Of a stretch of DNA of 43,512 bases, positions 17,040 through 17,353 are shown piece after piece. The stretch is taken from positions 1-43,512 of the forward strand of contig PMUI01000015.1 of NCBI GenBank assembly GCA_003166955.1, written 5' to 3'. The position numbers were made by a program, and so were the translations under genes. Under the pieces are notes generated by a model. That model was not told where the DNA came from. It did no database searches and saw only the letters and a program-made list of their open reading frames with translations. The first letter of the stretch is position 1. Every line of letters starts with the position of its first letter. The DNA comes from Acidobacterium sp. (GTDB lineage Bacteria; Acidobacteriota; Terriglobia; Terriglobales; Acidobacteriaceae).

Positions 17040-17147
17040 TTACCAGGGAATCGTTTTCAGAATGCCAAACCGCACCAGCAGCGCCGCCAACAGCGCCAAT
17101 CCCACTGCCCAGCTGTCGATAGAAATCCGTCGCGAAGACGAAGCCAT
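17040..17147 (-). CDS. 35-residue single-pass membrane protein, operon partner of the YeiH-type transporter
   Basis: A short ORF: a basic N-terminus (MASSSRRISIDSW), one hydrophobic helix (AVGLALLAALLVRFGIL) and a terminal KTIPW. The stop is 10 bases before the transporter ATG, and the ribosome binding site of the transporter lies in that gap. A GGGAG site precedes its own ATG. The D-S-W-A-V opening and the I-P-W end look like a short conserved module rather than chance coding. It may be an accessory subunit or stabiliser of the transporter (inference). Confidence 0.65.
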   Translation of the reverse strand: MASSSRRISIDSWAVGLALLAALLVRFGILKTIPW

Positions 17148-17241
17148 AAAAACCGCTCCCGTTCTGCAGAGAAAAATCCCCGCACTTGAAGTTTTTGATT
17201 ATCAGGAAATGCGCCGAATCACGGCGCGAGAAAGCAGAGCC

Positions 17242-17313
17242 CTAGCGACAACAACAACAGCAGCCGGAGAGGCTGCTCACAAACCGAATCGATGAAATGG
17301 ACAAGGCGCCCAT
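17242..17313 (-). CDS. Polycysteine leader peptide (putative cysteine attenuator)
   Basis: A 23-codon ORF: ATG, then codons ending S-G-C-C-C-C-C-R and TAG. Five Cys codons in a row (TGC and four TGT) just before the stop are very unlikely by chance in this GC-rich genome. The distal arm of a 7-bp stem (17259-17265 with 17271-17277, AGCAGCC/GGCTGCT) overlaps the first Cys codons. A second stem (17211-17216 with 17222-17227, GCGCCG/CGGCGC) follows the stop. Ribosome stalling at Cys codons under cysteine starvation would change which stem forms. AAGGA lies close to the ATG. Similar polycysteine leaders act as cysteine-responsive attenuators in mycobacteria. Confidence 0.7.
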   Translation of the reverse strand: MGALSISSIRFVSSLSGCCCCCR

Positions 17314-17323
17314 GTGTCCTTCG

Positions 17324-17353
17324 TTTGTAGCATGACCTACTTCTTCAAAGCAA
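17324..17353 (-). promoter_or_regulatory. Promoter of the leader/YeiH operon
   Basis: On the minus strand: TTGCTT (17348-17353), an 18-base spacer ending TGC, then TACAAA (17324-17329), i.e. with an extended -10 TGn. Transcription would begin near 17317, giving the leader ORF an untranslated region of about 4 bases. Confidence 0.45.

Follow-up and report, generated by a model that had tools for sequence, protein, structure and literature searches.

A candidate cysteine-sensing leader peptide upstream of a small membrane protein and a YeiH-type transporter in Acidobacteriaceae

Organization of the locus

The window analysed here, a 43,512-nucleotide stretch of an Acidobacterium sp. contig, carries on its minus strand, in this order, a -10-like box, a short leader ORF, a hairpin (hairpin B), a 35-codon ORF and the gene of a PF03601 transporter (Table 1). 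Translation and codon reading confirmed the 23-codon ORF of the first-pass annotation, with its five Cys codons, Arg and stop. The Cys codons are directly followed by CGC TAG, so that the C-terminus reads GCCCCCR-stop, with the Cys run near the stop as in polycysteine ORFs of the mycobacterial type. Both stems of that annotation, the 7-bp one over the Cys codons (hairpin A) and the one past the stop (hairpin B), are also found in the sequence, and downstream lies the two-gene operon it had described, with the ORF of a 35-residue membrane protein followed by the gene of a 361-residue PF03601 protein.

Table 1. Features of the leader region and operon in the window, and the second Cys leader of the same genome
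Feature	Position	Strand	Basis
Leader ORF, 23 codons, MGALSISSIRFVSSLSGCCCCCR-stop	17242..17313	minus	ORF translation; kept in relatives
Five Cys codons TGC TGT TGT TGT TGT, proposed sensor	17248..17262	minus	sequence
Hairpin A, 7 bp, 3' arm over first Cys codons	17259..17277	minus	sequence
Hairpin B, GCGCCG-TGATT-CGGCGC, 3' of leader stop	17211..17227	minus	sequence; no good U tract after it
One-helix membrane protein ORF, 35 aa, GGGAG at 17160-17156	17040..17147	minus	ORF translation
PF03601 (YeiH-type) transporter, 361 aa	15944..17029	minus	Pfam, 1.7e-79
Extended -10-like box, TGC-TACAAA	17324..17332	minus	sequence; box ends 10 nt ahead of leader ATG
Weak -35-like box, TTGCTT, 18-nt spacing	17348..17353	minus	sequence; 3/6 matches only
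Second Cys leader and strong terminator-like hairpin, before reductase/siroheme operon	G000:C39, L234	reverse	window's genome

The transporter scores 267 bits against PF03601 (Cons_hypoth698), above the cut-off of 24.5, and 117 bits against the TIGR00698 'YeiH' model, below the NCBIfam cut-off of 232.6. Its description as YeiH-type therefore stands for the Pfam family and does not extend to the narrower one: unlike the YeiH proteins of TIGR00698, it falls under that family's cut-off and would form a separate subfamily. A second, distant PF03601-like protein (29% identity) is encoded in the same genome at G000:C41:388-1149. A homologue of the small one-helix membrane protein lies directly upstream of yeiH in 141 of the 142 loci compared below, the remaining one having no upstream DNA. 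The protein has no Pfam or NCBIfam match, many of its homologues carry the motif S-[LIV]-D-x-W-A-V ... [IV]-P-W-stop, and it is likely the best candidate for a YeiH partner.

Conservation of the leader among YeiH relatives

The search for YeiH relatives covered 250 genomes of the family, 396 of the phylum and a named genome collection. Within the family, 167 genomes had a match, and the stronger matches and a few weak ones were read; the phylum set gave 29 genomes matching at E ≤ 1e-70, all assigned to the same family; of the named collection, 80 of 147 loci were kept. Removal of identical loci and distant paralogues left 142 loci, 139 of them with enough upstream DNA. Defining a Cys-rich short ORF by at least 3 Cys in 8 residues and a start no more than 45 codons from the stop, we found that one precedes the small ORF in 82 of the 139 loci, four of them doubtful by eye (L042, L178, L198 and L200), compared with 10/139 on the antisense strand and 5.6% of 2,780 shuffles; as the loci are related, some nearly identical, these counts are not independent. 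At a threshold of at least 4 Cys in 8 residues, the corresponding figures are 46/139, 2/139 and 0.32%. A Cys run at the equivalent place upstream of yeiH in close relatives, looked for as a test named beforehand, is thus present. In L010, whose YeiH is 95% identical, the ORF is kept as MGALSSFVNRFASSLSGCGCCR, with one Cys codon less and Gly in place of another.

In a YeiH tree of 137 of the 139 loci (two with short YeiH frames were dropped), 80 rows have a leader, presence and absence change 17 times, and like leader sequences mostly cluster. None of six distant YeiH loci (L089-L094, 28-45% identity) has an ORF with a CCC run upstream; this includes the second PF03601-like protein of the window's genome (L093). 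The leaders show two architectures. In the short one, which is that of the window, the ORF ends right past the Cys run, as in LSGCCCCCR-stop (window type), LSACCCR-stop or MPTRCCCS-stop. In the long one, longer leaders with clusters such as CTCCPCCMGTCCCC are followed by a terminator-like hairpin, for example CCCACG..CGTGGGTTTT.

The two hairpins of the window differ in how far they recur. Hairpin B is also present, by eye, in L010 and L068. Of 32 short-leader loci, only 8 preserve hairpin A with six or more of its seven pairs; the others lack it, and it was rejected as a general element; a single pair-keeping double change, from C-G to G-C, was seen.

Promoter and predicted transcript start

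A plausible promoter had been proposed just before the ORF. An extended -10-like box is there, but the promoter is a weak one: the -35-like box is poor and a sigma-70 consensus scan of the leader region gave no site. Among the relatives, a strict pair of TTGACA (5 of 6 matches) and TAnnnT ends 5-16 nt ahead of the leader ATG in 30 of 72 cases, compared with a mean of 0.12/72 in shuffles. This count covers those of the 82 leaders for which the script chose an ATG start, and the real figure of 30/72 is flattered, since leader start and promoter box were picked jointly by the script. The script's choice of start is unreliable at some loci (an internal GTG in L009), and the window's box was read by hand. 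Given how closely that box precedes the ATG, the leader mRNA would be leaderless or nearly so.

Cys leaders before reductase, siroheme and cysD genes

At 32 of the loci, at least one same-strand gene of reductase/siroheme type, as defined by a linked protein group, lies upstream of the small ORF. Three representatives of this group match the Pfam families NIR_SIR, Sirohm_synth_M with NAD_binding_7, and TP_methylase. Nine of these 32 loci end too near the locus edge; in the 23 that could be tested, a Cys-rich ORF precedes the first reductase/siroheme gene 19 times (antisense 1/23), an example being MRNCCQAMCCMCTPNAACRITPISGQESFRT-stop. In this arrangement, yeiH is therefore still preceded by a Cys leader, and the reductase genes separate the two. 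The reductase lies immediately after yeiH in G108 and G154. Neither a convincing leader nor upstream reductase-type genes were seen in 25 of 137 loci; L174, first listed among the leaderless loci, has a leader on closer look. At L158, one of the 25, genes of a sulfonate-type ABC transporter, recognised by eye, occupy -2905 to -224, immediately before the small ORF and yeiH. This locus has no convincing Cys leader, and a 50-residue piece of the ABC transporter gave no NCBIfam match.

We also searched for the reductase itself in 36 genomes chosen for carrying this yeiH. It was found in all 36, and the best 30 loci were read. In these, a Cys-rich ORF lies upstream of the NirA/sulfite-type reductase in 26/30 (antisense 3/30), and in 21/30 at the threshold of at least 4 Cys (antisense 1/30). 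With the loci near yeiH included, 41/46 have a leader, followed in 33 of the 41 by a terminator-like hairpin. The window's genome has such a unit as well: a TTGACC..TAGCAT promoter-like pair, the leader MAVCFNPVACCACCCAPRRTCG-stop and the hairpin CCCGCGCTTCAGC-tatcc-GCTGACGCGGGTTTTTT, that is, CCCGCGC..GACGCGGG-TTTTTT, precede reductase, siroheme and methylase genes. The best NCBIfam match of this reductase is NirA, under every cut-off. Because of its siroheme partners, the Cys leaders and the company of cysD, its substrate is probably sulfite rather than nitrite.

Further genes were examined in 20 genomes. A Cys leader precedes cysD in 12/16 loci (antisense 3/16; at least 4 Cys, 10/16 and 1/16), and the internal cysH in 0/13; these are 29 of 30 loci, L263 being dropped, and cysD and cysH were told apart, by inference, from hit length and order. 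For cysK, the 6/30 loci with a Cys-rich ORF (antisense 3/30; at least 4 Cys, 0/30 and 1/30; all 30 loci used) are a weak signal at best. The ilvC control gave 1/18 on either strand, and 0/18 on either strand at the higher threshold, in the 18 of 30 loci left once weak matches were dropped. Four of the 20 genomes, the window's among them, gave no PAPS_reduct gene (cysD/cysH type). Among reductases of more distant families, none of five near-full-length loci has a leader (0/5; the rest of the 24 were partial, split or remote matches). As sampled, the Cys-leader regulon belongs to the window's family, Acidobacteriaceae; one leader-bearing locus of the named collection, L145, is titled Candidatus Acidiferrum. 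The link of the leader to sulfur is stronger than the first-pass annotation could know, and the similar leaders before sulfate/sulfite-reducing genes suggest that the cell probably turns these genes on when cysteine is short.

tRNA-Cys genes and choice of Cys codon

ARAGORN identified seven tRNA genes in the 142 loci. The four that share the strand of yeiH are all tRNA-Cys(GCA); the other three (two Arg, one Ser) all lie on the opposite strand. The four tRNA-Cys genes lie in or adjoin the yeiH unit: L155 has the order leader, terminator, tRNA-Cys, small ORF, yeiH; in L174 a 3-Cys leader stands ahead of tRNA-Cys; in L044 the tRNA-Cys lies between a methylase-type gene and the small ORF; and in L014 it comes after yeiH. 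With a tRNA-Cys gene in the regulon, a shortage of charged tRNA-Cys would also raise the supply of tRNA-Cys. On the opposite strand of L155, from +1171 to +3156 and adjoining yeiH, we noticed by eye genes for MoeB/ThiF-like, ThiS-like carrier and JAB-domain proteins, a set that presumably resembles a CysO-type cysteine pathway.

The leaders also depart from the genes in their choice of Cys codon. In 78 of the 82 leaders (the four doubtful ones were dropped), TGT and TGC are used in a ratio of 296:109, compared with 65:611 in the yeiH and reductase genes. The other two-fold codons of the leaders (36 T, 135 C; odds ratio of 10 relative to the Cys codons, with cells that are not independent) favour C, so that the preference for TGT is specific to Cys. 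In 57 equal-length pairs of close leaders, the Cys codons differ at 23/229 positions and the other codons at 149/440.

Terminators, antiterminators and the short-leader type

Hairpins with T-rich tails and a folding energy of -10 kcal/mol or better occur in 70/139 sense regions and 35/139 antisense regions, in a scan that also catches hairpins other than terminators. For the yeiH loci with a terminator-like hairpin, we folded the RNA that begins immediately downstream of a ribosome, which was set on every Cys codon in turn or on the stop, with the 3' arm of the terminator not yet made. Over 35 of 37 terminator loci (L009 and L042 were dropped), the median upstream pairing of the terminator 5' arm is 0.76 at the best Cys stall, 0.14 at the stop and 0.57 in shuffled sequences handled in the same way. 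This pairing reaches at least 0.7 in 28/35 loci at the best Cys stall and in 0/35 at the stop, and has p ≤ 0.1 in 23/35. The folding thus predicts, for the terminator-type relatives, an antiterminator that would form upon a Cys stall; as in a classical attenuator, the genes would then be on under cysteine shortage.

At equilibrium, the median pairing of the terminator is 0.97 at the stop and 0.83 at the best stall (37 loci), with a clear switch in 11 of the 35 terminator loci kept; as most terminators survive the stall at equilibrium, the switch would have to be kinetic. In the reductase leaders, the antiterminator has p ≤ 0.1 against shuffles in only 9/33 (medians of 0.67 at the stall, 0.14 at the stop and 0.60 in the control), and that of the window genome's own reductase leader does not rise above shuffles (0.64 vs 0.66, p = 0.63). 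In the cysD leaders, it beats shuffles at p ≤ 0.1 in 5/6.

For the window's copy and its 'CCCR-stop' kin, hairpin scan and folding found no canonical terminator. A long hairpin before the small ORF was considered as the window's terminator and rejected, as it did not respond to ribosome position; the 'T' label given to the window by the tree script derives from this disbelieved hairpin. The proposal of a cysteine-sensing attenuator is supported by the conserved leader and its sulfur-gene partners, and not by the window's two stems, which form no canonical terminator or antiterminator. Translational attenuation was also rejected for the short leaders: whether the ribosome stalls or sits at the stop alters the accessibility of the small ORF start by 0.10 or less in the 17 loci folded. 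Between free RNA and the stop position, this accessibility differs by up to 0.18 in the same 17 loci.

The composition of the region past the leader stop offers another possibility. A hand-picked set of 32 short-leader loci has 40% C and 15% G in the 30 nt that follow the leader stop, compared with 29% and 28% after 124 yeiH stops and with 29% and 20% in the same region of the terminator class (36 loci); the short type differs at p = 2e-11 and 2e-6. Such a C-rich, G-poor stretch suggests a Rho loading site next to the stop that a stalled ribosome would cover, and the window's type of leader may possibly act through Rho-dependent termination. The window's own region past the stop is not clearly richer in C than in G and is a weak example of the pattern. 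By eye, a recurring UUCCUGAAAUC-like stretch was seen about 20-45 nt past the stop of short leaders in several genera.

Discussion

Taken together, the sequence comparisons favour a reading in which the ORF encodes a cysteine-sensing leader peptide of the small-protein/YeiH operon, in a regulon with a NirA-type reductase/siroheme operon and cysD; we would put its probability at about 0.8. In the proposed mechanism, translation of the leader would start at the 5' end of the transcript or no more than a few bases from it. With charged tRNA-Cys plentiful, the ribosome would read through the Cys codons and come off at the stop, and transcription would cease ahead of the genes, in many relatives at an intrinsic terminator and in the window's type possibly through Rho. 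With charged tRNA-Cys short, the ribosome would stall at the Cys run, which mostly uses TGT, the rarer codon. The stall would, in the terminator type, free an upstream segment to pair with the terminator 5' arm, and the genes would be expressed. YeiH would then be made along with the enzymes of sulfate/sulfite reduction, most likely handling sulfite or a related anion under high assimilation. The leader may also be compatible with signals beyond cysteine shortage. A broader proposal, to which we give about even odds, is that a family of Cys leaders with two modes, one intrinsic and the other Rho- or occupancy-based (in the 'CCCR-stop' type), runs sulfate/sulfite assimilation in these Acidobacteria, in a regulon that would include YeiH, the small membrane protein as its dedicated subunit and, in certain species, the tRNA-Cys gene.

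Of the alternatives, the one that fares best, although we consider it unlikely, takes the Cys run of the window's genus as a relic, with control moved elsewhere after terminator loss. The lack of a canonical terminator in the window's copy and the altered run of L010 would agree with it. However, no short leader has a longer unbroken run than the 5 Cys seen here (L009 and L068), and on the YeiH tree whole clades consist of leaders for which no terminator was called.

A little less probable still is that the signal is a metal (copper, zinc) or thiol oxidation, perceived by the Cys-rich nascent peptide, and not charged tRNA-Cys, perceived by the codons. Metal-responsive upstream ORFs containing Cys exist in proteobacteria, and several leaders have spaced CC-x-CC patterns like those of metal sites. 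Yet the leaders keep their Cys density although the residues may form anything between a plain CCC run and spaced clusters, and the targets are genes of sulfate/sulfite-type reduction. The tRNA-Cys genes in the unit, the preference for the rarer TGT codon and the antiterminator predicted to be freed by a stall on Cys codons likewise speak for the reading of codons.

We give even less credit to a leader that is translated but constitutive, serving as a 5' end shield or for translation coupling with no response to cysteine. The missing canonical terminator of the window's copy and the small stall-dependent folding change at the small ORF start in the 17 loci examined are what it would predict, but it leaves unexplained the Cys density kept across deep branches, the TGT preference and the shared use of such leaders before sulfur genes and not before ilvC. 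Finally, chance or a simple functionless TGT repeat has a negligible probability: the window's genome has 91 TGYTGYTGYTGY places (56 for the reversed-pattern control) and 17 TGYTGYTGYMGNTRR places (control 13), but only this one of the 17 resembles by eye a short ORF at a gene start, the other 16 showing nothing leader-like under a pattern that would miss the reductase leader, and the sense strand far exceeds the antisense strand in the 139 loci.

The reading as a cysteine-sensing leader peptide would provide a physiological handle on a widespread and poorly understood transporter family, since YeiH would be made when cysteine is short, and would make what YeiH moves a directly testable question. 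It also draws attention to the conserved small membrane protein, a likely partner of YeiH, and extends cysteine attenuation to another phylum, in units that can be compared within one genome.

Comparison with known systems

The Rfam covariance models gave no match at the gathering score in the window, and a single sub-threshold, unrelated match in 12 loci. In the titles and abstracts searched, a scope that excludes subscription papers, we recognised no account of this regulon or of a YeiH leader. Classical attenuators, such as those of trp and his, combine a leader rich in the regulatory amino acid with mutually exclusive pairings and a terminator. The terminator type described here has the same layout, with presumably cysteine as the signal and a very short or absent 5' UTR.

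Mycobacterial polycysteine short ORFs were reportedly described by Canestrari et al. in 2020 (cited in PMC13236596) and, by the title of that work, start leaderless. Leaders with Cys codons are known for mycobacterial and other actinobacterial sulfur genes (PMC1262725), in agreement with what the first-pass annotation stated of poly-Cys leaders in mycobacteria, and Rho has been suggested for the mycobacterial ones (PMC1262725). The window's copy shares with these ORFs a Cys run near the stop, sulfur genes downstream and the lack of a terminator hairpin. In contrast to them, the leaders studied here belong to another phylum, include a PF03601 transporter and a small membrane protein among their targets, and have predicted intrinsic terminators in many relatives; the likeness is one of features.

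The uORFC-8-2 motif, upstream of cysS in Rhodobacterales, is a short ORF with two conserved Cys codons (PMC8632094). It resembles the leaders described here in its tandem Cys codons and the stem over them, in its terminator and in the expectation that stalling allows readthrough; unlike the leader here, it controls a cysteinyl-tRNA synthetase in alphaproteobacteria.

Sulfite resistance of Salmonella requires YeiH, whose gene is turned on through YeiE (PMC12880088). Both systems tie a YeiH-type transporter to sulfite, whereas control there lies with a sulfite-binding LysR regulator and here with a predicted Cys leader. The genetic partners of yeiH in our loci also point to sulfite. The transported anion is most likely sulfite or a related anion, and both export of sulfite made in excess and import of a sulfur source are compatible with the data. 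The principle of the Cys leader is known, while the regulon, the YeiH unit, the phylum and the arrangement with tRNA-Cys appear to be new.
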